Shown piece after piece: positions 20,889 through 58,980 of a stretch of 64,000 bases of DNA (within the stretch, counting starts at the first letter, position 1; each line of letters starts with the position of its first letter). Location of the stretch: NCBI GenBank assembly GCA_963971425.1, contig OZ020517.1:23818462-23882461 (forward strand), given 5' to 3'. This stretch comes from Bryoerythrophyllum caledonicum (lineage: Eukaryota > Streptophyta > Bryopsida > Pottiales > Pottiaceae). The notes beneath the pieces were generated by a model. It ran no database searches. It was given only the letters and a program-made list of their open reading frames with translations, and was not told the origin of the DNA. Both the position numbers and the translations under genes were made by a program.

Positions 20889-21482
20889 ATGGCTCCGAAT
20901 AGGTTTGAGAATCAACGTATGGCAATTCTTGAGATGTATGAGTGAGGCAACTCATATGGCGAGATTTCAGCTGTTCTAGGTATTCCTTGAAGCACTTATT
21001 CTAATATATATCAAACATAAAGGAGGAAACATAATGGTCTAGGGTTGTATGAGTTGGAATGGAGTTGGCAAGCTTCATCTAATTGAAGGGAAGATGGATA
21101 AACATGTATATTGCAACATTAAAGAGGCGAAACTTGGTGGCACTATACAAATGCAAGGTTTAGAAGACAATGAGGTTATTTTCCAGCATGACAATGACCC
21201 AAAGCATATTGCACATTATGTTATAGATTGGTTGCGAGCTAAAAAATTTCAACTTATTGGACACTCTCTACAATCACCTAACCTCAATCCAATAGAACAT
21301 CATTGGAATGAAGTAGATCGTCATCTGAGAAGGTCTAAGAGTAAACCCACTAGTAAAAGTAACTTCTGGGAGAAGATCCAAGAAATTGGTACAATGCAGA
21401 GCTTGATGTTGTTAGGAAGTTGATACAATCTACGCTTGAAAGAGCTCTTGATGTCTACCAAGCAAGAGGTGGCTACACATAG
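20889..21482 (+). pseudogene. Tc1/mariner (DD34E) transposase, dead
   Basis: The enzyme cuts and joins Tc1-type transposon ends. An ATG at 20,889 starts a helix-turn-helix-like N-terminus (MAPNRFENQRMAILEMYE), then in-frame stops appear. After an internal deletion, the C-terminal half is readable: IMV-stop-GCMSWNG, then HDNDPKH and, 34 residues after its first Asp, the Glu of LNPIEHHW. That is the second and third catalytic residue in DD34E spacing; the first Asp is deleted. A frameshift near 21,395 precedes a normal Tc1 tail ending at 21,482. At least three stops, one deletion and one frameshift make it inactive. No clear terminal inverted repeats were found beside it. Confidence 0.88.
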
Positions 21483-23040: not shown

Positions 23041-26000
23041 ATGGAAATTTCCCATTCTGTGGCTGCAGGGCAGGCATCTTTAGCACAAGCTGGTACTTCA
23101 CATGCGCCGAGGGACCCTCCAGTGGAGTACATCTCAACGCAGAACTGGTTTAGACAGCTTCCCCTCGATATTTCCACACTGCAATACTCTCAGAGTTTGG
23201 TAGTGACGGAACATGGTGGTAAGTGGGGTTTACAGACCATGCCACCAGTCTGAGATCTTAGAGGCAGCAATTTGCTCAGGCGACGGTCTTCTGTTGCTCG
23301 TCGCACCAACTGTGCTAACTAACACACCTCGCCTGCATGCTCTAGTTTCAGGCTTGGGAGACGTACGTGTGCTAGGTTATGGTGAGCAGGAGCATCAATC
23401 CCAAACACCAGAGGCCTACACCACAAGCAAGTACGAATATGAGCAGAGCGCGGGCACTTCTATCTTGGGCAACGACCGACGAGGTGAAGTGCTTACCTAT
23501 CCTGAAGGTGAAGCTGATGCTGTGACAATCACTGAGCTAGATGTGGAGGGTCTCCGACCGACAGAGTATCTGGGCAACAACATAATCGACTTCTATATCA
23601 AGTGAGTCAGCCGGGTCTTGGTGTTTCCATTAGATTTGTTTCGGTAAGAATTCTGCTTGTACTTGCCAACTGTTCATTTTTTGTTAACTTGATTTCTAGA
23701 TTGTTGGTACCAAATGTAGTGGTGTTGGTGCAGGTATCTGGAGAGAAAGCTTTTCCCTGGGGACAGAGCACGTTTTCATATCTTCAACAGCTTCTTCTTT
23801 TCGAAACTTTTAGGGTTTAACAGTGCAACTGACGACATCAGTCAGTGCAAGGTTGACTATGAGCAAGTGCGAAAGTGGTCGGCAGAAGTGAATATGTTCG
23901 AGAAGGACTTCGTTTTTATTCCTGTCGTTAGAAGGTGACTGTACAGTACAGCAGTGTTCCTATGCATGGGTGAAGTGTTGATTGCAGTGCTTTCAGTACG
24001 GTTACATTGATCGAGCATTCGTTCGAACCATCTGGTGAGGTGTATTGTTGTGTGTACACAGCAACAAAGAGTGCGTTCGTTGGTCGTATGTGGAGCGCAG
24101 GCGGCTCTACGGATTCTAAAGTTTGGGGTGAGTTTTGTTGGATTGCAGATCGCATTGGAGCCTGGTCATTATCTGCCATCTTCGGAGCCTTTGGAGCGCA
24201 TCTGGTGAGGCCGTGTTGACGTGCACTTTGTTTGATGCTATTGTTTGTTTTTGGATGGATGAAGTTCTTACTTCCTATGACATTCCCTTGACAGGTGAAA
24301 AGAGGGGCACACCGTGTATTCTTCATCTGGATTCGCTTGAAGGGATTCACGAGAACTTCAAAAGGCAGGTTCGGAGGTGAGTATATGTGGATATCATTAC
24401 ACATGAATCTCATTTTCTCAGTGTGATGATTCCTGAATGCATGTCTTGTATTGCACAAGCTTCGAAGAGTTCTTTGAGTTACTCTGGCAGAACAACTGGC
24501 AGATGGGAAGTACATTCATTTCGTACAGATTATTGCAATATGTTGGAGGCTCGTTCCGTACTACTCACTTTTTCCTGGAAAGCAGGAGTTGAACTTGGTA
24601 TTAGTGTGATAATAACTCATGTTTCCTTGTAGCAAGCGACTAACGCTATACTGGATCGCAATGGCCATTAATCCCCCGTGCAGCTACCTATCTAAAACAT
24701 GGATGGAGAAATGCCATGCTTCAGATGACAACATGGATCGGCTACTTGACCTCTGTCAACTGAAGTACATACAAGCTGAGGTATTGCCCAAGAGAAGTTG
24801 TGATGGTTTTGTCTGTGATTTGGGCGGGATGTTGGAACCTTACAGTCACGATGGGACAGACATAGCTGTGGCAGAGTTAGGTGTGGAATTCTGATTTTCA
24901 GATTGATTGCATATTTCAGGTTCCACGACAGAAGAACGCGTACGACTGCGGTGTATACCTCTTACACTATATCGAGGTTTTTTTGTCTGAGGCAACCTCA
25001 GTGAGGTTTGCTCCAAGGAGAGGGGTTCCACTCTTTACCCGTCCGCAGTTTGCAGAAGAGGTTTCGGACAAACGCAGGGCTATTCAGGAACTCGTCCGTG
25101 GACTTGAAGGTGAATATCTATCCCGTAGATATGTTATGTTGTTTGTACTTGGGTCTACTTACGGTATGTTTACGTATCGTCGGAATCATGCTCAAGGCTG
25201 TGTCAAACTCCTCTGATGCATTTTACTGATGTTTCCAATGACAAAGAATTGGATGTTCTGTTTCGTCTCTGTGCATGCCCTGAGTAGCCGTTTCTTGTAC
25301 CTCACCTTGACGTGTCCGTCGAATGATAGTTTTATGATTGTTGTTGGTCGGAATCTAGTGGTGGTTTATGCACCTCAGTCAATGTAGCGGTTTATTTGCA
25401 GAAATAATGATGCGTTAGAAACAGCATTGCAGTCGATATTCCGATCCGATTCTTAGGGTTGTGTCCACAGCATCTGGTGGGCGCATTGCAGATGTGCAGA
25501 GCAACAGCGTGTCTATGTCCGATCCTCACGCAGACAGTCGAACAACTCGGAAGTTGAATTTAGATAGCAAGCCTCTAAATGGTGTCGCGGTTGCGCATGA
25601 AGAGTACAAATCATCTGAAGGAGTTTCAATGGACAGAAACCTGCAAGTCAGGAATAGCCCAAGTGCAGCGTTGCGTGCGCCATCGAAGCAGTTGAGTAAA
25701 AAGCGGAAATGGACCGACGGGGAGACTTGGACTCTTCTGAACTGCAAGGCCGAAGGAGGCCGCTTCTGCAAGGGTAACCAAACTGATATGAACTGGGACA
25801 GTGTCTCTCAAGAAATCACAAGCAGGCTGGGAACCACACCGTCGGCGGAGCAGTGTCGGCGCCGGTACGAGACTTTGCAGAAGGCTTACAAGAGCATGAA
25901 GGACTATTCTGCGAAAACCGGCCGGACGTTTTCAGAGATCACGGAAGAGGAGAGACTGGAGCTGAAATTGGCAACTACCTTGAATGAGGAATGGTACAAG

Positions 26001-26685
26001 TGTATCGACGCATTCTCTCACAAAGTCAGGTCCCTAAAGCGAGCCAGGCATAGTGGTGGTGATGGTACTGGCCAGGTTTCAGCGGGTGATGTGAACCACT
26101 CAGCACCTGTGGGCTCAGCAGTCCCAGCCACTGCAGCAATGACTGCTCCAATGTCAGTTCCAGCACCGTTTCGAACTAGAAATTCATCCCGGAAACAAGT
26201 TGTAAGTGCTGGATCACCTCCTCCCTATGCTTTGGACATGTCTGATAGCACCGAGTCTCGATTGCAGTGGTGAGGTTCAGATTCTTCTGTGCGTCCAAAT
26301 GATGGGCCATGCATCTGGTTTGCATTGACGTCTTGGGTTTGTGGGGCAGGCTATTCCCGGTTTCAAGAGTTTAAAGGAGGACCTGAGATCCACACTTATG
26401 GATCTTGTGATGCTTCCGGAAATTGATGAATGTCCATTCTACAACGTCGAAGTGATATGCCAAAAGGTGGGAATTGTGCATGACCGGAAACCGTCGGTCA
26501 TTCGCAAGCATGTAAGTTTTCGATTGCAAGGGCTTCAACTTCAAATTGCGTGTTTGGATGAATCATTTCATACCAGTCCACTAGGGTGCAATATGCTTTC
26601 AGTACGCTCTGGGGAGTAGGAACAGACCGAGCGTGCTCAGAATCATGTTGCAGCATTACCTGCAGAGTTTTGTTCGTCTACTTAG
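23041..26685 (+). CDS. Ulp1-type SUMO protease fused to a trihelix DNA-binding domain (predicted, 10 exons)
   Basis: Predicted exons: 23,041-23,218; 23,352-23,601; 23,734-23,934; 24,149-24,204; 24,295-24,376; 24,684-24,780; 24,920-25,109; 25,471-26,201; 26,350-26,511; 26,641-26,685. All junctions are GT-AG, phases agree, and the total is 1,992 nt, or 663 residues. Residues 205-350 match the C48 (Ulp1) cysteine protease fold: His212 in SHWSLVIICH, Asp241 in CILHLD, oxyanion Gln292 and Cys298 in VPRQKNAYDCG. Such enzymes cleave SUMO from proteins. Residues 430-533 are a trihelix (Myb/SANT-like) domain with Trp432 and Trp460, and a basic KKRK just before it suggests a nuclear location. A second copy at 56,152 shares exon structure but is broken. 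Alternative: two adjacent genes, with the trihelix starting at ATG 25,515; the in-frame sequence upstream of that ATG is kept in three copies, which favours fusion. The last exon is the least certain. Confidence 0.72.
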
Positions 26686-26719
26686 GTGGCTTGTCTTCGG
26701 ATGGTTGTGATGATGCTTG

Positions 26720-27853
26720 ATGCACACGGAGAGGCTTGTCGATGTGCAGTTGTTTCAGCTTTCGGCGCTCAAGTTTCTGAGCTTTGAGGATGATAATGAT
26801 CATGAGGGGTATTATCTGCATTTGGGGTATCTGCGGGTGTACAAGAAATTCGTGGAGAAGGTGTTTCGCAAGATTCCCGACTTCGACATCTACCTGAAAG
26901 TAATGCGCAATGATGGCATCGTTTCGTTTTCCGAGGCGTCAGTTCCGTTGTCTGTGCATCGAATTAGAGTGCTGGTACTCTCTGAGTGTGGGAACCTCCA
27001 GCTTGTCGACTTGAGTTTCTTCCCAGAGCTGCGCTACCTCCGCATCGATGCTTGTTCTAGCCTGGAGAAGGTAACAGGGTGGGAAGCGGTCAAAGGACTG
27101 GGATACCTTGAAATCGGTGGGTGTGTTTCTTACATGGATTTTCCTCCAGTACAGTGCCTTCCTTCTTTGAGGAGGTTTAGGGTTTCTGGATGTTGCATCG
27201 AATTGGTTTCGGTGGCTGACTTTAGCCAGTGTGTTCGACTGCGGACACTAGAGATCAGGCGTATTTATTCTTCGGTGCCGTTGAATGGTATGGATTTGAG
27301 CACGTTGCGGTGCTTGGAAGTCTTGGATCTCTCTTATTGGGATGCCCTGACAAGCATCCAGGGTTTGAGCGCACTACATTCCCTGACGACACTGAACCTT
27401 GTAAACTGCAGAGCGCTGAGAAGAGTTCCAGCGTTAGGTTGCTTGAAGGCTCTCACTGAGTTGAGTATGATGGGCAGTGGTGTAGAAGAGATTTCAGGTG
27501 TGCAGGAATTGCACTCGCTCACTTCATTGGACCTTGGTAGATGCCGTTCATTGGAAACATTGCCGTGGTTAGGTCACTTGAAAGCGTTGACTATGTTGGA
27601 TATAAGGTGGAGTGGTGTGGAGGAGATCCCAGGCGTACAAGACCTGATCAGCTTGGAGAAATTATGGTGTTATAAATCAAGATTGAAGTGGCTTCCTGAT
27701 TTGCATCACTTGCCTCGGTTGCAGTCGGTGTGGATAGAGGACACTCCTTTGAGTACAACGGAGTCCCCTTCATCGATTTATTATGGGAAGTTGTGGTTGG
27801 AGTATAGTTGTGAACGGAAGTGGAAGGACTTTGACGATGATGTCAGTGAGTAG
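26720..27853 (+). CDS. Leucine-rich-repeat protein (377 aa)
   Basis: From ATG 26,720 the frame runs 377 residues to 27,853 without interruption. From about residue 85 it is made of leucine-rich repeats of 22-24 residues, for example LTSLDLGRCRSLETLPWLG and LTMLDIRWSGVEEIPGVQ, about ten in all. The repeat style resembles the LRR parts of plant resistance-type proteins. No kinase, NB-ARC or signal peptide is seen. The N-terminal 80 residues (ALKFLSFEDDNDHEG onward) are unfamiliar. It starts only 35 bp after the predicted stop of the protease-trihelix gene. Its 5' part could be cut off, so it may be the C-terminal exon of a longer gene. A fragment of the same sequence lies at 44,668-44,930. Confidence 0.75.
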   Translation: MHTERLVDVQLFQLSALKFLSFEDDNDHEGYYLHLGYLRVYKKFVEKVFRKIPDFDIYLKVMRNDGIVSFSEASVPLSVHRIRVLVLSECGNLQLVDLSFFPELRYLRIDACSSLEKVTGWEAVKGLGYLEIGGCVSYMDFPPVQCLPSLRRFRVSGCCIELVSVADFSQCVRLRTLEIRRIYSSVPLNGMDLSTLRCLEVLDLSYWDALTSIQGLSALHSLTTLNLVNCRALRRVPALGCLKALTELSMMGSGVEEISGVQELHSLTSLDLGRCRSLETLPWLGHLKALTMLDIRWSGVEEIPGVQDLISLEKLWCYKSRLKWLPDLHHLPRLQSVWIEDTPLSTTESPSSIYYGKLWLEYSCERKWKDFDDDVSE

Positions 27854-30394
27854 TTTTGAGATATTTTGGATGAGATATGATGAACGTATAGAAATTGGTT
27901 CCAGAAGTGGAGTGTATTTGAATTCAAGTTTTCAATGTTTGATAGGGAATGGTCTAACACTTGTGAATTCTTCTTTTCATGTGATATGAGGGAGAAAGTA
28001 GGTATGTTGTTTATTATTGGTCGATTCATCTATTTCCACTATGAAGAAATTTAGTTGAATTGAAAAGAAAACATCATAATTAGTGTTTATTGCAAGTCAA
28101 TCCCTTATAAAAAGTCATTACCGATTTGAAATTATATATGATAAAGTTATAATTTTCTATTCCATCACACTATATATTATATGGTGTCATATGAACTATG
28201 TTGGTTTAATAATCTCGAGATCAATTATGTGAAATAATTAGAAATATTTTACAGAGACATAAACATATGATTTGTTCTTCATGAGAAACAACTTTAGAAT
28301 GAAGAGTGTTTTTTTTTTTCTCTCCAGTACTACCATTGTTGTTCTTGTATTAAAGTATAATTAAGAAACTATTAAGCATAATGAATTATGCGTTGTTTTT
28401 GTATGATTTATGGTTATATGATAGAATCATATATATTATTGTTCATTACATTACATCATTAGATGTATATTATTTAATGGACTATTCAAGTGATGCATGA
28501 TAAGGAATGTATTAGTTCAATTTAAGTTAAAAAAGTTCTTAACTATAAAGATTATTATTGACTTCAAATTCAAGTCTACAATTGATCACTACTATGTATA
28601 TGATAGTATTTTTCATGCAAAATAAATGACAAATTCTAGTATATTTTGTAAGTTTTTGTGCATTGTAGCATTCTTTGAGTAATTAAAAAAAAATGGCACA
28701 TTTTTCTTACTTTGCATGTTGAAATTTCAACTAAAGGTTGTATATCATTTTGATTGATGTAATTCCATTAGTTTACTTAATGAGTTGTATTTAGTAATAT
28801 CATAAAAGCACTTGTATACACTAGCTAGGTAGATCTTATGTTTGATTTCATATTGCCCTCGTGGCTACCAAGAAAAACAAAAGAAAAGTTTAGAGTTGTT
28901 TTGAGTTCAATTTTTTGTTTGACACAAAAATTAGGGGCCTCTATTCAGATTTTAGATGCATTTACTAATGGCTCTAATAAGTTTTTTATAAAGCCCTAGG
29001 ACCGATTTCATATATTTACAATGGAGAGTATAGTCATTAATATTTGAGAGATATAGTCTCCATTTGTATCCTAGGCTCTCTAAGCATTGACCAATCGTTC
29101 ACCCACATGTTTTCCAAGCCAATTCACCTTCTCCATGTGGGTCCAATTATCATAATGAGGCTTTAAACTAGAGGGTGACATGAGGCGTTCACTCCTCCAC
29201 TTTCACAGTTACTTTTATATCATCATGACTAATCTACCATCTAGAAATTTGAAGTACCTTTCACTACTAGGAAAATGGTATGAGATGACCATTGAGTATA
29301 CCACATTGTGGCAAACTATACAAGAGCTAAGGTATCCTTCCCTACTACCACCACCTTCTTATCATTGCCACTCTATATTTGGTCATAAAGGGATATACCT
29401 TAGTCAGTATTTGCTATACTCCTTTGTCTTACACAATCTCTATAGCCCCTAAGTTTAGGACCATTTCTCTTTGGGGGGACGTTTCCCATTTTGGGCACGG
29501 CCCTACTGTCTCAATTTGGATCATAAATTTTTGAATTCTTTGTGAAGATGTGGCATAGTAGTAGCTTTGTGGAATATATACTTTTTTCACATGGAACCTT
29601 TAAAAATTACTTTTGCTATACTAAATCTTATGGACTCCGGGCAACTCCAAAATTGTTTGCTACAAGTTTCTACCAACATTAAGACACATACAAAACAAAA
29701 CAACAATCACGTCCTTTATATTGGTTGCTTTGGTGGTAGTTTAAAAACTATTTCACAAAGAAGAGGACTTCATTTTTTATTTAAAACTTTTAGGTGCTTT
29801 ACATTTTAAGAAAGAGTAAAAGAGATATAGGGTCAATAAGAAACCACATTCCTTATTTTCACTGTTTGTGGTATTTCTTCCATGAATATTTCAAAATCAT
29901 GTTCTTAATAGAAACATTCTCTTCATGAGAATGAATCTTGAAGGTTTACCTCAGCGTCAAGTGAGATTTTTTGAACCATCCTTCATTCCATAATTTTTTT
30001 GAAAATGCTTCACTTTTCTTCAACCATTAAACATTAGACTATATGGAACTAACATCACTTAGTACATCTTAATGGTAACAATTAAACATACCTTCAAAAA
30101 TATCAACACCATCGCAATCCAACATGCTATGTCCATACTTTTACATAAACAAAAAATGTTGAATAACCAAACCCTCCCAGATCCACATGACACACCATTA
30201 AACATCCAACTTCCCCATTGCCCCACTCATTTCCTCTCCTTCCTCCCTCCCCCCCCCCGGTCCTTCCCTCTTCTTTGTCTACCCTCGAGAGGAGGAAGTA
30301 GCTCCATACTACTAATTCCTTGCTAGGTGGGCACGGTCTTAGTGGTGGAGCGAACAGACACTTTATTCATGCCGGTCCCCTTCGGGAACTGGCG
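27854..30394. other. Gene-free AT-rich stretch with repeat pieces
   Basis: No gene was recognised. 28,918-29,045 matches 280-455, and 29,060-29,340 matches 2,700-3,010, joined here without the 2 kb that separates them at the left end of the window. The remaining sequence is AT-rich with scattered short frames. Confidence 0.55.
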
Positions 30395-31448
30395 TTCTTC
30401 TTCTTCTTCTTCTTCTTCTTCTTCTTCTTCTTCTTCTTCTTCTTCTTCTTCTTCTTCTTCTTCTTCTTCTTCTTCTTCTTCTTCTTCTTCTTCTTCTTCT
30501 TCTTCTTCTTCTTCTTCTTCTTCTTCTTCTTCTTCTTCTTCTTCTTCTTCTTCTTCTTCTTCTTCTTCTTCTTCTTCTTCTTCTTCTTCTTCTTCTTCTT
30601 CTTCTTCTTCTTCTTCTTCTTCTTCTTCTTCTTCTTCTTCTTCTTCTTCTTCTTCTTCTTCTTCTTCTTCTTCTTCTTCTTCTTCTTCTTCTTCTTCTTC
30701 TTCTTCTTCTTCTTCTTCTTCTTCTTCTTCTTCTTCTTCTTCTTCTTCTTCTTCTTCTTCTTCTTCTTCTTCTTCTTCTTCTTCTTCTTCTTCTTCTTCT
30801 TCTTCTTCTTCTTCTTCTTCTTCTTCTTCTTCTTCTTCTTCTTCTTCTTCTTCTTCTTCTTCTTCTTCTTCTTCTTCTTCTTCTTCTTCTTCTTCTTCTT
30901 CTTCTTCTTCTTCTTCTTCTTCTTCTTCTTCTTCTTCTTCTTCTTCTTCTTCTTCTTCTTCTTCTTCTTCTTCTTCTTCTTCTTCTTCTTCTTCTTCTTC
31001 TTCTTCTTCTTCTTCTTCTTCTTCTTCTTCTTCTTCTTCTTCTTCTTCTTCTTCTTCTTCTTCTTCTTCTTCTTCTTCTTCTTCTTCTTCTTCTTCTTCT
31101 TCTTCTTCTTCTTCTTCTTCTTCTTCTTCTTCTTCTTCTTCTTCTTCTTCTTCTTCTTCTTCTTCTTCTTCTTCTTCTTCTTCTTCTTCTTCTTCTTCTT
31201 CTTCTTCTTCTTCTTCTTCTTCTTCTTCTTCTTCTTCTTCTTCTTCTTCTTCTTCTTCTTCTTCTTCTTCTTCTTCTTCTTCTTCTTCTTCTTCTTCTTC
31301 TTCTTCTTCTTCTTCTTCTTCTTCTTCTTCTTCTTCTTCTTCTTCTTCTTCTTCTTCTTCTTCTTCTTCTTCTTCTTCTTCTTCTTCTTCTTCTTCTTCT
31401 TCTTCTTCTTCTTCTTCTTCTTCTTCTTCTTCCTCTTCCTCTTCTTCT

Positions 31449-31495
<47 letters not shown>

Positions 31496-31530
31496 TTCTT
31501 CTTCTTCTTCTTGTTTTTTTTTTTTTTTTT
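30395..31530. repeat. Very long (TTC/GAA)n microsatellite ending in a T run
   Basis: TTC repeats run from 30,395 to 31,512. They are pure for about 345 units up to 31,431, then show a few C insertions near 31,432, 31,438 and 31,471. A 17-base T run follows at 31,514-31,530. The strand is wholly pyrimidine on one side, which favours triplex (H-DNA) structures. Open frames of poly-Ser, poly-Phe or poly-Lys through it are artefacts of the repeat. Confidence 0.98.
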
Positions 31531-33790
31531 AATGGTATAAAATTTTATAGCTTTTGTAATGCACAAATTTGACACCAAGTGAAGTAAAAGTATGAAGATC
31601 CTATAAACGCAATGTGAAGAAGAGTGACAACTTTCATTACTTCAAACACTATAAGGTCAATATTTTTGGAAAGTTGTGAGCATGTCGGTTTAGTATTACA
31701 TAGATTTCGATTTTACGATTGGAGTTGGAATTACAATTATATATATTTTTTTCATTTTTTTTCATTATATTTAGATTGAATTATTTTTGGTGAAAAATAG
31801 TCAACGACTTTTAGGGATTGAGTGGTGTGTTCAACTTTTAAAGTACCTAAACTATGTTTCATTAATACCACTCCAAAACCTGCCTCTTTATGATGAGACG
31901 CTGCAAGACTAAATGGGAAATTCTTTAAAACTTTCAAGTGTAGGATCTTTAACCCATACATTTCTTCTACACATTTGATACCAAAAGCACGTCGAAATTG
32001 CTCATTTCAGCAAGTAAAAGAGAAAACAAATTTTTTTTTACCTATATCTAACCAAAGGATCTCAAGTAAGACTTATTAAGTAACATTCTCACAAAATTTC
32101 ATGAACTTTCACAGCACGGATTCAAAGATTATAGTGTTTGACATAGAAAAACGGTTGGCGCCAAAACTTTGCAAAAGTACCCCCATGTAGGCACATTGGA
32201 AGACGACGGCCTTTGGACTTTGGCCTTTGGTGTGAAGGCCGAGAGGCCAGACTTTGGCCATTCAAGCAATCTCATTAGTGGAAACCTTTGGACTCTTGAC
32301 TAGGGCGTTAGGTGTAAAGCGGCCCTCACTTGAGTTCAATATGGAATATGCAATTAATAATTAAGCTGAAATGGATATTTATCCCTTATTCAAGTTTTAT
32401 TGACATAATTACTTCTTTTGGCATACTTAATTTTTAAACTTATTTTATTTTAACTTAGAACTTTAGATGAGATAGAATCTTATCTAAAGTGATTTCATTT
32501 CCTTAGATCCTTGTATCAAGAAAATACATATTATGACTTACATGCATAAACATGTTATGAAGAATACGCTAATGATCAGTTTCGAAAGTTTGAAAACAAC
32601 ATACTTCTAATTTACTTCTCATTTCTCACTACATGCAATATTTTTTCAATGATTATGTACTCCTCAATGTATTCATGATGCATTATTTGCAGCATGTACT
32701 CATTGTAATTAAAGACAATTAGAGAGTAGTCAAATATGCATTAAGTGAATTGTAGTATTCTAGATAACAAAGAATGAATGTTGACTTCAACTCACATTAA
32801 AATGCTCAATTTATATACTAATAGTTCATATCTCTTGGAATAGTCTAAACTATTTTGACACATATGAAAATGAATTTCATGTTGATGTTTCATCCCCCAT
32901 TATTCATATTGAGCATACAATTTGAAATCTACTTGACATTAAAAGTATCAAAACATAAGCTTTCGTAAAGAAAACAATGATAAATAAATGGTTAATTACT
33001 AAACACTTACAAAAGACTCAAACAACTGTTGTTTATTCAAGTCTTTAAGATGAAAAGTACAGAAAGGAGAATATTATGATCCATAACTAAAAGACTCTTG
33101 ACTAGGCCTTCTTTCATTATCAAGATTATCAAGAATTTAGATGTCTATCAAAAAGTTACCATTTTGCTCCAAATTGGTCTCAATGCCTTATTTGTCTATC
33201 TCATGAATTGAGCCTTGGTACGATTTCACCCTCTTTGTACAAGAGAGAATTGAGCCTTGGTACGATTTCACCCTCTTTGTACAAGAGAGAATTGACCATG
33301 GGTAAATCTCAGTGCCCACTTCTACTTCACGCCAATGAACTGCATGAGTGGTAATGGCATTGACTAATTTGGGCCCAATTGAATGCAAGCAAAAGCTCCT
33401 CCATCATTCCCTATGTTTCCTAAGCATTGACCATCCGTTCCCCCACACTTTTCCAAACCAAACCACTCTCTCTACGTAATTTAGATTACCCTAACAAGAC
33501 TTGTAACTAGAGGTTGACAATAGGGATTTACTCCTATTTTTGAAGGTAACTAAAACTTCATTATCACCAATCCACTGTCAAGAATTTTCAACTACCTTTC
33601 ACTACTAGAGATATGGTGTGAGGACGACTCGTGCACCAAATAGTGACAAACTATACCAGAGATGGTCGTTGTTTGGTATATCAAATGTTGGTGGTCTTAT
33701 AGCATCTTACTTGTAGTGCTTATGACACCAATAGTACATTTGATGAGGGACATCACAAATAGGTTCAGTCACACTGACTTCCAAACGAGG
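31531..33790. repeat. Dispersed repeat region, paralogous to 700-850 and 1,690-3,095
   Basis: 31,835-31,950 matches 712-842 and 32,375-33,790 matches 1,690-3,095, same orientation and order. A 51-bp stretch around 33,202-33,300 (GAGCCTTGGTACGATTTCAC) is duplicated in tandem. At 33,790 the repeat passes into the deleted copy of the protease unit. No gene seen. Confidence 0.6.
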
Positions 33791-33799
33791 TGACTACAA

Positions 33800-35545
33800 T
33801 TTCAGGAGGTGCAGCAACAGCGAGAGCTGGATGAGTACAACATTTGTGATCGTTCTCTTATTGACTGCATTGATGGCTAAGAGTGAGTATCGGATCGGAT
33901 GCCCAACGTTCGGAGTTGCGCACGCTGGAACGATCCTTGAACGCTCAATTGGAATGGGGCGGCGCGGAAATGGAAGCGGTGTTAGATTGCGAAACATCAC
34001 GAACTGTTGTCTCCATTGTAAAATAATATTTGAGACAGTTTCAAATCAATATTGAAGTAGATGAGCAAGGCTCACCGGCAGGGCAAAACCATAACAACTG
34101 GGGTAAACTCTAAGATGCATCTCGGACGTGTGCACAATACACAATCATTCGTCACAGTGTTCACCGATTTTAGCTCAGATGCGGAGCAGTTGTTGAGAAC
34201 CAATGGTGTGGATTAGGACATGTCTGTGTCCGACTGTGTTTTCAGTGACATAGTTAGTTAAAATGCTGTGAAGTACAAACAAGATGTGTATGACAAACGA
34301 GCAATGATGGAGTCTTTTTACAAAAAAAATTCAAAATCAAGGCATGAAAGACGTGATTACTCTGTGTTGACTCGAATCCAATCAACTACAACTAGAAATG
34401 ATCAACGTCGATGATAGAGGAAAGTATACACTATCTTCGGACTCTCTCCACTAGAGTGATCTTTCCAATACAAATCCATCAAGCCACGACATCATGGAAT
34501 AGTGGCGGAGTTTCGGAAAGATGCGGCGTGTCTACGAACCAACCCTTGCGCCTCCGACATTGGACCCCATTGCACCTGTCGGCACGCGCTACTTCGCATC
34601 GTTCCCACCACTGTACGTTCAGTTTGATGAACATCCAAGCAGCTATTAGTTTTGGTGATGGTAGTAGACGACGGGTGTCGGTGGCCTTGCTCCTGCTCCA
34701 GATGTGCGAGTACTCCTCCAGGTTCACAATCGAGCTTCAACCTCCTTGTCTCGACTTTCTATGAGATGGCTCCACTCTGCCAGGTTTTGTAACACCGACA
34801 TCCTGTGAGGGTAGTGGGGACCCAGATGCTCCAGGCCTTCAACCTTGCTTCTATCTTCTTGTCCAGCCTCCCACCTTCTCTGAAATGGCTCAGCTCAGCT
34901 TTTATAACTCCGACACAGTACTCTTGAAGCTGGGCTCTCTGAGAGGAGACTTAAATGTGGAATTTGTATAGTAGCGGCGAAAATAGTTGCTCCGAGAGCT
35001 ATTCTTGTGGTCATTTCAAGTATGTACGATCAATCTATGGGATACACACCTTAAGCTTTTGTCAAACTATGTCGATGCATTTATCGGTCGTCTGCATAGC
35101 ACAGCGAATCAGATGGTACGTTCCGTCTCAGTAGCTCTTTCTTCCACTTCACCTTGTGTCCCCTAATGATTCATAGTATAATTGCTGATGTTGGTAAAGT
35201 CTTGGGCAGAATTGGGCATCCCAATGACACGCGCAGTGATATATTTAAGATCTTTTCTCTTTGATTTGCTTGAATATGAGCCATATTGTGAATATGCCGA
35301 TTTATGCCTTTCTGATTAGCTACATCCGGTGGGTGCAGTGCAGAAGCGCAGAGCAACACCGTCCCCATGTTCGATGCTCAACGTCATTTAAGCAAACACC
35401 CATCGATTGATGCGGTTGCGGTATTGAACAATCATGAACAGTGTCTCACAGAGACTCATCAAAGAGAAAATCGACCAAGTTGCGAGTTGACATTGGATAC
35501 CAAAGCACTTAATGGTGTCGCGGTTGGGCACGAAGAAATCTCTAC
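33800..35545 (+). pseudogene. Deleted third copy of the leftward-region/protease-trihelix unit
   Basis: 33,800-34,470 matches the upstream region of the leftward gene. 34,478-35,030 matches the leader of the protease-trihelix gene, with one decayed palindrome at 34,553-34,564 (right arm TTGGA). At about 35,030 the sequence jumps to what lies at 58,225 in the second copy, so all seven protease exons (about 3.2 kb) are missing; the joint falls in a short shared ATCAATCT. The trihelix exon start (from about 35,323) is still open but stops at 35,545, where a MITE cuts it. This copy shows both halves of the unit side by side. Confidence 0.8.
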
Positions 35546-42253: not shown

Positions 42254-42499
42254 TTATGACTCTTCTCGTAAGAAGTGATCCAAAGTGTCGAGGAAGTGCA
42301 ACTGCTTCATCGTCGTCAAGGTGCCGAAGCTGAAAGGCTTGTATTTGCAGGGATTGTGCAGCGCGTCCACCATGTCCGGCGCGGCGACGATGTCGATGGT
42401 GGTCAAGGGCACCCAGAAGTAGACGAGGGAGATGCGGGACTGGCTGTCGTTCACCACAGCCTGGTGCGGCACGCTCTTGTATCTCGCGGTGGTAAGAAC
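42254..42499 (-). pseudogene. C-terminal exon of a 2-oxoglutarate/Fe(II)-dependent dioxygenase
   Basis: Such enzymes hydroxylate or desaturate small molecules, often hormones or flavonoids, using iron and 2-oxoglutarate in the cytosol. Following a good acceptor (TTTTCCGCTGCAG, minus strand) come 81 residues starting VLTTARYKSVPHQAVVN. The His in SVPH is the second iron-binding His, and SRIS gives the Arg-x-Ser that holds 2-oxoglutarate. The frame ends in a normal stop at 42,254, and the length after the His suits the family. An intron just before the TARYKS region is common in plant members. The N-terminal exons, with the HxD half of the iron site, are not found in the 1.1 kb before the hAT fragment. 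It is therefore a fragment, or the end of a gene with a very long intron. Confidence 0.75.
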
Positions 42500-43187
42500 C
42501 TGCAGCGGAAAAGCGAGAGTTACAGGCGGTACAACCAGTCGACGACGACGACGACGACGACTAGGCTTCAACCATGTACTGCAAAGCAAGAGACGAACAG
42601 TTACAAGTACGACGTCCTCCGGATCAGAATCAGATGATACGATTGCAAACCATGCACTAACGTTACTACTGTTGTAGTTGTGGTAGTACTGTAAACTACA
42701 AAAAAAAATATATTAAACTTGAGCAAGCACCTTACACGTTTGGATTGAGGATTCCTCAACGAACATCTTTCTCTTGGGTCATTTCAATATCTGAACCCTA
42801 TCATGTTCAAATACAACAGCATACAAGTAGAATATTGTGGCCACCAGCGGGTCAGTATGACGTTCAACGGTGAACAAGAACAAAACTCTTGTTGGTATCT
42901 TTGGGTGACTGTACAGATAACTCTAAATTGTCGGATGATACTTGTTCCTATTCACAAAAGGTTGGAGAAGAGAGAGCTCATGAACAGTGACCTTGTAGTG
43001 TGTTGATGGCATTCTGAGGGAAAAGAAAAAGCAGAATGATGCGAAGAATGATGGTGTTTCCTTCCAGTCGCTGGATGTGAAAGAGAGGAGGGTGACATCA
43101 GCAGTAACGACTAACTGCTCTCGCCGCACCAGCACCGGACTTTCAAATTCCAAACTGCTCCCTGCAATAGATGCTTTTCTCCTCCAC

Positions 43188-43665: not shown

Positions 43666-44661
43666 TTACAAAGTAGCGTTGAGGAAAATCTCGTCGGTTA
43701 GTTGATGTTCATCGCTGCCACCGTTTCCGTTCATGAACAGCTCGGCGTCCTTCTCCTCCTCGTTCGAGTAATCCCTGCGCTCCAGCTTCGTATGGGACGC
43801 GATGAAGATCATCTTCTCGGCCTTGTCCACCGCTAACCGCGAGTTGCCGTTCCGGGAAGCCCAGCGCCAGAGCGACCAGTTGTACTTGAGCCCACAGCTG
43901 GTGGCGTGGAGGAAGATCAAGCGGACGGCCACTTTCCCCAGGGACTTGTACTCGTTGAGACAAGTCTCCCACACCAAGCGCCGGCTCTGCGGATTGACAG
44001 CTCTCATGCGGCCGGTTAACGGATCGCGCTCCTTCACCTGGACGGCTTGCGCGTACAGCGGGTCGAGCCCCTCGGCGCGCCATTTCATGAGCTCCATCAG
44101 GGCGATGTGCGCTTCCTCCCGCGGCACCATCCGGGTGATCAACCGGTCCACATCCTTCTCCTGCTCACTGGTTAAGCACCGGAAGGGAGGCAGGTACTTA
44201 CCACTCGAGTCGCGCAGGAGGTACAGCGGGTCGAGGATAAACGCCGCGGACCAGGCTGGGTGGTAGTTCTTGTTGAACCGCTTCTCGATGAACTCGTACA
44301 CCGGCGTCTCGTCCTTGTCGTAATGCGCGCACCAGTCCTTCACCTTGCCCCGGAGCTCGTCCCAGAGCGGCAAGCACTGACTCACCAACGGGCGATCCAC
44401 TTCGATGTCGTTCACCATCACCTTCACGATCTTCACCAACTCCTGCACCGCTTCCAGGTCGGACCAGAAGCGCATGCTGCCCACCAGATCCGTCACGTCG
44501 CGCCGCAGCTGGTCGTCCGGGAATTGCACGCAGAACTGGTCGTCGGCCACTGTGTTCTGCAGCGCTCGTGCAGACGCCGCGATGTCGTCCAGCATCACCA
44601 GCACGTATGCGTAGTGAGGATCCGCGAACTGAGGGTCAGGCGGCGTTCGTAACAGTTTCAC
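43666..44661 (-). pseudogene. hAT transposase, C-terminal part
   Basis: An open frame of 331 residues on the minus strand matches the plant hAT transposase/DUF659 type. A region around RFNKNYHPAWSAAFILDPLY is the usual ILDP block. The C-terminal dimerisation-like part reads LGKVAVRLIFLHATSCGLKY followed by NWSLWRWASRNGNSRLAVDK. The enzyme would insert and excise hAT transposons in the nucleus. The N-terminal half, including any BED zinc finger and first catalytic Asp, is missing; the frame begins with GTG, not ATG, and similarity stops where an LRR fragment begins at 44,668. The region is clearly GC-richer than its surroundings. The remaining frame has no stop, so the truncation is probably recent or the exon is part of a larger gene. 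Confidence 0.72.
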
Positions 44662-44667
44662 GCTATC

Positions 44668-44930
44668 GTACTCTTGAAATCGGCGGGTGTGGTTCTTTCA
44701 AAGATTTTCTTCCAGTACAGTGCCTCCCTTCTTTGACGGAGTTTAAGGTTTCTAAAACGGATATTGCAATAAATTTGGTGGCTGACTCCAGCCAGTGTGT
44801 TCGACTGCGGAGATCAGAGATCTCGCGTATTTAATCCTCGGCGCTGAACAGCATGGATTTGAGCACGTTGAGATTCTTAAAAGTCTTGGAACTCTCATCA
44901 AATTATGCCCTGACAACTATGCAATGTAGG
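44668..44930 (+). pseudogene. Fragment of the leucine-rich-repeat gene
   Basis: It aligns with about 27,105-27,365 of the LRR gene: CTTGAAATCGG, CCAGTACAGTGCCT, CCAGTGTGTTCGACTGCGGA and GGATTTGAGCACGTTG recur in order. Small deletions and a stop near 44,832 break the frame. It directly abuts the truncated hAT transposase, on the opposite strand. Confidence 0.85.
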
Positions 44931-55154: not shown

Positions 55155-55219
55155 TAAAGTCTCTGAAGTCCGAAGTGGGGGGTCGCAGTGGGACCACCAC
55201 GACTCCAATGAAACTGTCC

Positions 55220-55332
55220 TCCGATATCGGACTGAGGCAGAAAAGGCTTTCTTGGTCATCAAGGAATCTTGGCAGAGATGCGGTGGTTTGCGGGTGAATG
55301 CGAACTGTTACCCTTGCGTCTCCGATATCGGA
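55220..55332. promoter_or_regulatory. Palindrome cluster F, upstream of the second protease-trihelix copy
   Basis: Two intact sites, 55,220-55,231 and 55,321-55,332, both with centre TA. The first corresponds to 22,110-22,121 in cluster B. Confidence 0.65.
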
Positions 55333-56151
55333 CCCCATTGCAACTGTCGGTACGCGCTGCTTTGCACCTTTCACACCACTCTGTCACCAGTTTGATGAAC
55401 ATCCAAGCCTCTAGTAGTTCTGGTGACGGTAGCAGGCGATGGGCGTCGGCGGCCTTGCTCCTGCTGCAGACGTGAGAGTACTGCTTCACATTCACAATCG
55501 AGCTTCTATCACCTTGTCTGGTCTTGCACTTTCTACGAGATGGCTCTGCTCTGCCAGGTTTTGTGACACCGACGTCCTGTGAGAGTAGTGGCGACCTAGA
55601 TGCTCCAGGGCTTCAACCTAGCTTCGACTATCTTCTTGTCCCGCCTCGCACCTTCTCTTGTTACTTCGACACAGTACTCCCGAAGGTCTCTCTGAGGGGA
55701 GATTTAGAAGTGGAATTTGTATACTAGCGGCGAAAGTAGTTACTCCGAGAGCTACTTTTGTGATCGCTCCAGGTCTGTACTTGCTATTATTCCATCGACC
55801 GACAGACCATCCCATAGCTTTCTTCCAGCAATCGTGGTTTATGTTCTCAAACCCATCTCGTATCTTGCGGGCTTCCGAAGTAGTTGACTTTTTATATGGC
55901 TGATTACTTGACCTCTTTCAAAGTTTGGTGATTGTACGTTCGGTGTATTCCAGTGTATGGTTTCAAAAGCAACGCTCTTGACTGTAATTGCAGGAGGTCG
56001 GTCGCTGCATCCTCGCTGCAGCCCCGCATGAGCCGTAGCTTGGAGATCATCCACTCTAGACCCTGCTAGAGGAAGCTCCAGGGCTGGGGATTTCTTCCAG
56101 GACAATTCCAGACTTATCGAGGCTCGCAATTTCTTCAGCGCACCTCCGGCG
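55333..56151 (+). promoter_or_regulatory. Conserved leader of the second protease-trihelix copy
   Basis: Counterpart of 22,220-23,040. About 55,735-55,870 is nearly identical to 22,637-22,772. The probable acceptor GTAATTGCAG is also kept, followed by a small local duplication (GCTGCATCCTCGCTGCAGCC). Confidence 0.55.
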
Positions 56152-58980
56152 ATGGAAATTTCCCATTCTGTGGCTACGGGACAGGCTTCTTCGGCAGAAG
56201 CTGGTGCTTCACAAGGGCAAAGGACCTCTCCAATGGAGTATATCTCAATGCAGAACTCAATAAGCCAACCGCCCCTCGATATCTCCACACAGCATTACTC
56301 TCACAATTTGCCACTGACGGAACATGTTGGTAAGTCAGATTTCCTGACCATTCCACCAGTCTGATATCTTAGAGGCAGCACTTTGCTCATGCCTTGGACT
56401 TCGGTTGCTTGATGCACCAACTGTGCGTGCTTACACACATGCTCCGCATGCTTTGGTTTCAGGCTTGGGAGATGTACGTGTGCTAGGTTATGGTGAGCAG
56501 GAGCTTCAAATGTCCGAAATACCAGAGGCCTACACCTCAAGCAAGTACGAGTATGAGCAGAGCGCGGGCACTTCTTTCTTGGGCTACGACCGACGAGGTG
56601 AAGTGCTTACCTATCCTGATGGTGAAGCTGATGCAGTGACAATCACTGAGCGAGATATGGAGGGTCTCCGACCGACAGAGTTTCTGGGCAACAACATAAT
56701 CGACTTCTATATCAGGTGAGTGGACCAATTCTTTCTCCGCATTAAAGAAGTTTGCTTTCTAAGGACGTTGGTATACATATTGTTTTTACGATGAAATCTG
56801 GGACTATGTGCTTCTGTGAGTGCAGGTATCTGGAGAGGAAGCTTTCTCCTGAAGACAGAGAACGTTTGTATTTCTTCAACAGCTTCTTCTTCACACTTTT
56901 AGGGAGTAACAGCGCATCTTACAACGTCGATCAATGCAAGGTTGACTATGAGCATGTGCGGCAGTGGTCTCGGGAAGTCAACCTTTTCGAGAAGGACTAC
57001 ATATTCATTCCCGTCATCAGAAAGTATGAGTTCAGTTCTTTGGTGTGAATTGAATGTTGATTGCCGAATGGAAAGAAGAAAATAGAATTCCAGTCTACTT
57101 TGAGTAATGATGCGTGTCAGAATAGCTTCCTGGGCAAGTGTAATTTTTCATGTAGGCGGTATGAAAGGGCGCCTCTTCTGTTATCAACTAGGTGCTGTAC
57201 TAGATTCTCATAATTCGTCAAGCTTTGTTTGATGGCAGTTCGCATTGGAGCCTGATCATCATCTGCCATCTCCGGAGCCTTTGGAGCGCATCTGGTGAGG
57301 CTCTATTATCATGCACGCTTTGGACACATGGGTTTTTAAGTGGAGCATTTCAGTTTCTTACTTCTGTTGATGTCTCCTTGACAGACGAAAAGAAGGGGTC
57401 ACCTTGTATACTTCACCTAGATCCGGTCTTAGGAAAGCACGAGAGCTTCAAAAGGCTTGTCCGAAGGTAAGGTTTTGGCTAATAATCGTCATATATTGGA
57501 TCAGACAGATCATCGTGCTCAATGTTTCTGGTGGACCCGCCACTTGAATGACTTGATGGTGAGAAATCGCTAATTCAGGAGTTCCTTTTTTTCTTGAGAA
57601 GTAAGAGATATGGAAATTCTTGTGTGTGTTATGCTGACATTCTTTATCTGCATAGTTGCCATTGATCAGTTCTAGGCTTAATCTATTTATGGTCATTATT
57701 TGACGTGTGCAGTTTCATATCAAAAGCATGAATGGAGAAACACCCAGGTGCTTCAGATAATATGGACCAGTTATTCGACCTGTTTCAAATGAAGTACATA
57801 GAAGCGGAGGTACTGACTGGAATCTATTGTTCAGATGGTTTCGGTTGTATCCTGGGAGGAATGTCGTCAATGACTGCAAATGGCATCAACAAGCCATGAC
57901 ATTGATTTATTGAAAAAGAGGTCATGGAAAGCTGATTGTTAGGTTCATTGTGTCTCAGGTTCCACGACAAGACAACGGCTACGACTGTGGTTTGTATCTC
58001 TTACACTATATAGAAGTCTTTCTGCTTGAGGCGACCTCACTGAGTTACAGCCCTGCGCCACGTAAAGGGGTTCCACTTTTTAGCAGTCCACATTTTGCAC
58101 AGGACATTTCTGTCAAACGCGTGGCTATGAGGAACCTCATCCTTGGACTCAAAGGTGAATATCTATCCTCTAGCCATATTGGGTTGGACGTGCCGGTCTA
58201 TGTACGTTATTGCTATCAAGTCCTGGAAATCAATCTTTGGAATACACAACTTGGGCTCTCTGTCAGACTATGTCGATGCATTTATCGGTTGTCTCCATAG
58301 CATAGCGAACTAGATGTTATGTTCCGTCTCAGTAGCTCTGACTTCCTTTTCACCTTGTGGTGTCCTTGAATGGTTCTTAGTAAATTCTGCTGTTCGTCAG
58401 ATCCTGGGCAGAATTGGGCATTCCAATCACACGCGCAATGATATATTTAAGATCTATTCTCTTTGATTTGCTTGAGTATGAGCCATATTGTGCATATTCT
58501 GTCTTATGCCTTTGTGATTAGCTACATCCTGTGAGTGCATTGCAGATGCCCAAAGCAACACCGTCCCCATGTTCGATGCTCAACATCATGTGAGCGAGCA
58601 CCCATCAATTGGTGCGCTTGCGGTGATGAGCAATCCTGAACAGAGTCTTACAGAGACTCATCAAACAGACAATCGGACAAGTTGGGAATTGACATTGGAT
58701 ACCAAAGCACTGAATGGTGTAGCGGTTGGGCACGAAGAGTGTCAATCGATAGGAGAAGTTGCTGTGGACAAGAACCAGCAAGTCAGAAAGCGCCCTGGTG
58801 TGGCGTTGGCTGAGCCATCCAAGGTTAGTAAGAAGCGGATATGGACGGATGAGGAGGCTCGGAGTGCAAGGCAAGTGCAGGGCTGAAGGAGGGCGCTTCT
58901 GCAGGGAAAACCAGACTGGTATGAATTGGGACAGTGTTTCTCGAGAAATCTCAAGCAAATTGGGAACCACACCGTCGGCA
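56152..58980 (+). pseudogene. Second Ulp1-trihelix copy, inactivated
   Basis: The protease exons align one to one with the first copy: 56,152-56,329; 56,463-56,715; 56,826-57,023; 57,239-57,294; 57,385-57,466; 57,713-57,809; 57,959-58,154; trihelix exon from 58,522. Splice sites and phases are kept, as are the catalytic blocks SHWSLIIICH, CILHLD and VPRQDNGYDCG. Three lesions kill it. A TGA at 57,729-57,731 replaces the Trp codon in exon 6, upstream of the catalytic Cys. A one-base gain near 58,856-58,884 shifts the trihelix frame. An unrelated sequence replaces everything after GTTPSA at 58,980. Ahead of the frameshift the trihelix exon remains open in frame with exon 7, supporting the fusion model. 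Some of its coding exons are more than 90% identical to copy 1, others noticeably less. Confidence 0.85.

Follow-up and report, generated by a model that had tools for sequence, protein, structure and literature searches.

The closest known systems to the gene family described here are soybean Rpp1 (ULP1-NBS-LRR) and the bacterial effector XopD, which combines a DNA-binding domain with a C48 protease. Rpp1 carries an N-terminal ULP1 (C48) domain together with an LRR and lies in a multi-copy locus (PMC9528084, PMC12460401), and it therefore resembles our family in having C48 and LRR within one plant protein of a multi-copy family; in the excerpts of these sources an NBS is named for Rpp1 and a trihelix is not, whereas here C48 and LRR are separated by a trihelix and the proteins scanned yielded no NB-ARC. 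XopD of Xanthomonas is a nuclear protein that likewise unites a DNA-binding domain and a C48 SUMO protease (PMC8415633), while the excerpt of that source names no LRR and the domain order is opposite to that of our protein. A XopD-like bacterial secreted effector was rejected as an identity for the present gene, which bears introns and lies in a genome of 437 Mb. RRS1 (WRKY) is an NLR with an integrated DNA-binding domain (PMC9528084). It shares with the family a DNA-binding domain and an LRR in one protein. RRS1 has TIR and NB-ARC, whereas neither was found in the family proteins. As to the single domains, the C48 catalytic part is of the SENP6/7 (Ulp2) type, its best PDB relative being SENP7 (E 1.7e-29), and to our knowledge SENP6/7 proteases carry no trihelix and no LRR. 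The family shares with trihelix (GT) transcription factors a Myb_DNA-bind_4 domain above cut-off, and we know of no such factor with a protease or an LRR.

NLRs of strawberry, soybean and maize are known to contain integrated C48 domains (PMC4759884), and an expansion of NLRs with integrated domains has been reported for Sphagnum (PMC11218826). The parts are already known. For the combined C48-trihelix-LRR architecture, or for a C48-trihelix protein, we recognised no description in the excerpts of the open-licence literature covered, subscription journals and preprints lying outside this scope. Since surveys such as PMC4759884 begin from NB-ARC, as far as the excerpt indicates, a C48-trihelix-LRR family would be missed by them.

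Gene structure and family copies

The window, i.e., the whole stretch of 64,000 nucleotides analysed, corresponds to C4:23818462-23882461 in an assembly of 894 contigs. Genes with introns, LRR models of the plant type and numerous NB-ARC matches point to a plant. Ten GT-AG exons on its forward strand (Table 1) assemble into a model of 1016 aa with no internal stop, which reads from the N- to the C-terminus as a SENP6/7-type C48 SUMO protease, a trihelix domain and an LRR domain. In Pfam scans the assembled protein reached 99.4 bits for C48 (PF02902), 38.9 for Myb_DNA-bind_4 (cut-off 27) and 60.9 for LRR_4, and single open frames of the window matched Peptidase_C48 (two frames) and Myb_DNA-bind_4, all above cut-off. 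The protein also holds basic NLS-like stretches (KKRK and KRAR), and a motif scan of the family copies found no EAR motif common to them.

Table 1. Exons of the ten-exon gene and further family pieces, in window positions
Feature	Position	Strand	Content
Exon 1	23041..23218	+	N-terminal region, start ATG 23041
Exon 2	23352..23601	+	N-terminal region, C48 domain begins
Exon 3	23734..23934	+	C48 protease, Pfam PF02902
Exon 4	24149..24204	+	C48, catalytic His (SHWS)
Exon 5	24295..24376	+	C48, catalytic Asp (HLDS)
Exon 6	24684..24780	+	C48, weakly conserved
Exon 7	24920..25109	+	C48, Gln and catalytic Cys (VPRQKNAYDCG)
Exon 8	25471..26201	+	Linker, trihelix (Myb_DNA-bind_4), basic NLS-like stretches
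Exon 9	26350..26511	+	Conserved, leads into LRR; without Pfam name
Exon 10	26750..27853	+	LRR domain; stop 27851-27853
Third copy, remnant	34477..35536	+	Upstream piece 34477-35026 directly joined to linker 35029-35536
LRR fragment of family	44673..44916	+	78% to 27107-27353
Second copy	55155..58979	+	90% identical to L048; cut inside trihelix

The initial annotation had proposed ten exons of 663 codons without a stop, joining the protease to the trihelix. Exons 1-9 could be rebuilt with GT-AG introns and fitting phases, including the phase-1 end of exon 7 that the trihelix exon takes up, and the motifs with His, Asp, Gln and Cys of C48 were all found in the protein. The last exon, ending at 26685, did not hold: with the acceptor at 26603 the model gave 676 codons and no stop there, and we rejected this ending in favour of a conserved splice to the LRR exon, which had been missed. 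The LRR open frame (26714-27853) begins directly downstream of the exons proposed earlier, and the TGATGA at 26708 is intronic in the ten-exon model.

When the genome was searched with the trihelix part, 48 matches were obtained and 14 loci (L039-L052) were taken from them, while the C48 copy number in the genome rests on a Pfam search with 25 matches, counted exon by exon. By tblastn, 13 of the 14 loci showed C48, trihelix, exon 9 and LRR matches in identical order, with some exons unmatched, and the remaining one (L047) showed trihelix, exon 9 and LRR matches and no C48 match. We distinguish subfamily A (the window gene, L048, L049, L050 and the broken second copy) and subfamily B (L039-L046, L051 and L052), the identity being 72% within A (window vs L048), 82–90% within B and 45–48% between them. 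The tblastn gaps concerned exon 1 (matched in L048, L049, L050 and the second copy, with no match in B) and the linker, both matched only in A, as well as exon 6, matched in one of ten B loci, and exon 4, missed in L046. Thirteen other modelled loci share the order and the splice sites, and GT-AG is found at every modelled intron in 12 of them (13/14 with the window gene; the exception, L051, is decayed), and the gene model is therefore not due to chance. Eight of the 14 modelled loci are intact (window, L048, L041, L040, L042, L043, L045 and L046); as an example, L041 assembles into 1017 aa from nine exons with no internal stop, and the LRR is shorter in L040 (861 aa), L042 (973 aa) and L046 (958 aa). 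The other six (L050, L049, L039, L044, L051 and L052) have no open frame as modelled, and some of them may be model faults, because the limits were transferred from one locus to another by alignment. His, Asp, Gln and Cys are kept in 8/8 intact copies, with the catalytic Cys read from the alignment, and L045 has Ser, not Gly, directly after this Cys.

The copies form an array on C4 (23807, 23843, 23877 and 23913 kb, where 23877 is the broken second copy of the window) and another on C8 at 23.09–23.22 Mb, with further copies scattered. For the second copy, the frame said initially to stay open from the acceptor into the trihelix is indeed open over 58518-58883; beyond this the frame shifts and the copy breaks off inside the trihelix, with neither exon 9 nor the LRR matched in the rest of the window. 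No protease exon was found in the third copy, and the GATTAG acceptors reported for both copies were seen. Elsewhere, a family member that appears to have decayed is represented at C12:21293739-21294745 by its post-trihelix piece and LRR, and C2:1.84–3.2 Mb together with contigs C839-C872 holds many near-identical trihelix and NB-ARC matches, perhaps duplicated assembly pieces. Note that the window also contains a 343-codon open frame (43666-44697, reverse strand) that overlaps the edge of the LRR fragment and has no Pfam match, presumably a hAT-type transposase fragment, a partial match to 2OG-Fe(II) oxygenase that narrowly misses the cut-off (42254-42712, reverse strand) and a tract of >1 kb made almost entirely of T (30302-31641), whose long Phe frames are meaningless.

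The join of protease and trihelix can be read directly in subfamily B, where no intron separates the catalytic-Cys segment from the trihelix. Both lie in one open exon at 8/10 loci (L051 and L052 have stops), which supports the early claim of one protein with both domains, and the only one of these exons that was scanned, from L041 and in direct translation of the DNA, reached 42.6 for Myb_DNA-bind_4 (cut-off 27) and 22.2 for Peptidase_C48 (cut-off 20.7). Because both domains share one open exon in this subfamily, their join is independent of splicing, and these single-exon paralogues make a poly(A) end near 25216 or 25417 unlikely for the family. Helices were predicted for the trihelix of L041 by a structure model of the exon-7 fusion that is weak overall (mean pLDDT 58.2) and was used only for these helices. 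The LRR domain, in turn, appears to belong to the same protein as C48 and trihelix: in 15/15 aligned copies exon 9 begins after GCAG and stops before GTA and the LRR acceptor is GTGCAG, the passage from exon 9 to the LRR exon is phase 0 to phase 0 in two templates, and the first in-frame ATG lies 154–156 codons inside the LRR part in 6/14 copies. Two or three neighbouring genes (a protease, a trihelix factor and an LRR protein) would fit the 361-base gap with in-frame stops between exons 7 and 8 in the window, the ATG 10 codons before the LRR acceptor in the window and L050, and the ATG that is the first codon after the acceptor in L039; this reading is very improbable against the single open exon of subfamily B, the invariant LRR acceptor and the 12/14 copies that have no in-frame ATG before it (all but the window and L050), and we rejected it on the single-exon loci and the missing start codons. 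The three-part architecture is thus well supported by the genomic sequence.

Selection on the domains and exchange between copies

Omega was estimated from NG86 counts, with seven pairs of copies for the comparison of domains. C48 is under purifying selection (0.27–0.62 in the seven pairs). The trihelix ranged over 0.17–0.99, with 0.76–0.99 in three recent pairs, and the whole LRR exon over 0.44–1.48, exceeding 1 in 3/7 pairs; values above 1 were also obtained in some pairs for the N-terminal, linker, post-trihelix and exon-9 segments. Relaxed constraint may therefore play a part, given these trihelix values, the whole-exon LRR omega above 1 in only three pairs and the values above 1 in other segments.

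The exposed positions of the LRR domain, its contact surface, diversify, as those of plant immune receptors do. In the window protein, 12 LRR strands were assigned by hand, and the x positions of xxLxLxx, five per strand, were taken as exposed (60 codons). Between the window and L048, the exposed codons carry 36 nonsynonymous and 3 synonymous changes (omega 3.62), compared with 35 and 16 at the other LRR codons (omega 0.65). Over nine pairs, which share branches and are not independent tests, omega of the exposed codons was 3.62, 1.59, 1.66, 6.44, 3.76, 1.73, 2.78, 1.03 and 0.88 (the last two between subfamilies), i.e., above 1 in 8/9 pairs, vs 0.25–0.65 for the other LRR codons. The nonsynonymous/synonymous contrast between both classes reached p <0.05 in 7/9 pairs, the two others being L042/L046 (p 0.075) and L040/L043 (p 0.22). 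In permutations the excess at exposed positions was reached by 0/20,000 random draws, in A and in B. When the register was shifted, the excess in B was highest in the true register (0.62 per codon, followed by 0.49), while in A the true register (0.60) equalled shift +5 (0.61). No amino-acid change was seen at two of the three leucine positions, and little at the third (0.08 in A and 0.25 in B).

In addition, the copies differ unevenly along their length. The window and L048 are separated by a synonymous distance of 0.52 in C48 and of 0.11 in the LRR exon, suggesting that copies have exchanged sequence, and the near-identical pair of the window and L050 is 95.5–100% alike in exons 1-8 and only 88–89% in exons 9-10. 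Window positions 24131-25167 stand out against L048, with 70–76% identity in exons 5-7 compared with 94% in exon 2, 93% in exon 4 and 85–87% in exons 8-10; this mosaic suggests gene conversion between copies.

Origin of the parts and putative function

The family appears to have been assembled from parts that are still present in the same genome, namely a C48 gene on C3 with matching exons and, on C6, a trihelix with LRR downstream for which no C48 was found directly upstream, and the joined genes lie on C4, C8 and C2. The C3 gene matches exons 2-7 one to one (best matches at 31–72% identity, with exons 2 and 7 partial and exon 6 weak, E 0.004), and its exon edges, compared by eye, fall at the same places and phases as those of the family. 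As the edges coincide, the protease part probably arose by DNA duplication and not through RNA. In the C6 cluster (20.43–20.53 Mb), trihelix matches are followed at two places, after ~1.1 kb, by LRR matches at 36–48% identity, and one 1.9 kb piece, L063 (in particular 1308-1901), contains a trihelix-coding exon that has an ATG of its own (29.5 bits, cut-off 27). No C48 was seen in the frames read for this piece, nor any match to the cluster in the genome C48 Pfam search. A protease-free trihelix-LRR form may thus exist on C6, where the spacing suggests that the LRR would belong to the same gene.

Some plant MULE and other transposons carry C48 domains, and upstream of the gene (21043-21420, forward strand) there is a weak match to the DDE_3 transposase (22.3 bits, cut-off 28.6). 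Both would agree with C48 and trihelix parts that belong to a mobile element, which we regard as barely credible: the Pfam matches of the two assembled proteins include no transposase domain, exons 2-7 correspond one to one to the C3 gene with the same edges by eye, many copies stand in arrays, and C48 evolves under purifying selection.

With regard to the LRR domain, a structure model predicts a solenoid (mean pLDDT 75.3). After the generic LRR_4, its best Pfam models are LRR_R13L1-DRL21 and LRR_RPS2, both of plant disease-resistance proteins, and ten NB-ARC loci of the same genome match it at ~26–47% identity; among the best 111 of 776 candidates, LRR genes outside the family (C1 and C9) reach equal or higher scores. 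In a sequence comparison with PDB chains, bacterial Rab-family (Roco) proteins (E 9.8e-23) and internalin A come first, and plant NLRs rank lower (e.g., Roq1, 1.6e-10). As the concave face of the LRR changes fast, it would be in contact with a changing partner. Diversification indicates that the partner changes and not which partner it is, and the nearest PDB chains are not immune receptors, so that the gene might instead be a developmental or genome-conflict factor whose LRR diversifies against an internal fast-evolving partner (a mobile element or a mating protein) and not a pathogen; we consider this improbable in view of the disease-resistance type of the Pfam models.

The family shares with NLRs a C-terminal LRR with diversifying exposed residues. 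However, NB-ARC was found neither in the two assembled proteins scanned by Pfam nor in 20 other open frames of the window, and NLR membership was rejected because the proteins scanned are without it. The genome holds at least 122 NB-ARC matches, some of them on C8 near 22.5–22.7, 24.0 and 24.5 Mb, and the matches listed (121 of 311 candidates scored) include none on C4 beyond 13.2 Mb. The signal could come from an NB-ARC partner encoded elsewhere, while protease and trihelix act mainly as baits that mimic effector targets under the watch of the LRR. For such an integrated decoy speak these genomic matches, including those on C8, and the C48 domains known in plant NLRs (PMC4759884; soybean Rpp1, PMC9528084 and PMC12460401, as excerpted). 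We nevertheless hold it to be rather unlikely, as all eight intact copies keep the catalytic residues, which a bait need not, and the two assembled proteins lack NB-ARC.

Nuclear recognition with deSUMOylation near bound DNA would be the simplest reading, because a trihelix, NLS-like stretches, an apparently intact SUMO protease and a diversifying LRR occur together. If transcribed and spliced as modelled, the gene would, with about even chances, encode a nuclear recognition protein (~1017 aa at full length) made of a SENP6/7 (Ulp2)-type protease, a trihelix and an LRR solenoid. In the mechanism that we infer, the fast-changing concave LRR face would meet a variable partner as its putative ligand, and this would most likely be a pathogen or another foreign molecule, while the trihelix, if it binds DNA, would hold the protein on chromatin; the protease, if active, would then be released or repositioned and would strip SUMO chains from nearby regulators, thereby switching transcription. 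The initial proposal of a protein that removes SUMO at chosen DNA sites was right in placing C48 and trihelix in one protein and incomplete, since the gene runs on into the LRR; such removal would be at most a part of the function, and recognition is probably carried by the LRR domain. With an immune role, the family could represent a class of plant immune receptors without NB-ARC, in which a diversifying LRR is fused to a chromatin-tethering trihelix and an active SUMO-chain protease and recognition leads to local chromatin deSUMOylation, a proposal that we put forward only tentatively.

Altogether, if this proposal is true, the family would link recognition to transcription through a single plant protein that dispenses with the nucleotide switch of NLRs, and the plant would have its own equivalent of what the bacterium achieves with XopD. 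The family allows a direct test of whether chromatin-aimed deSUMOylation is an immune output.
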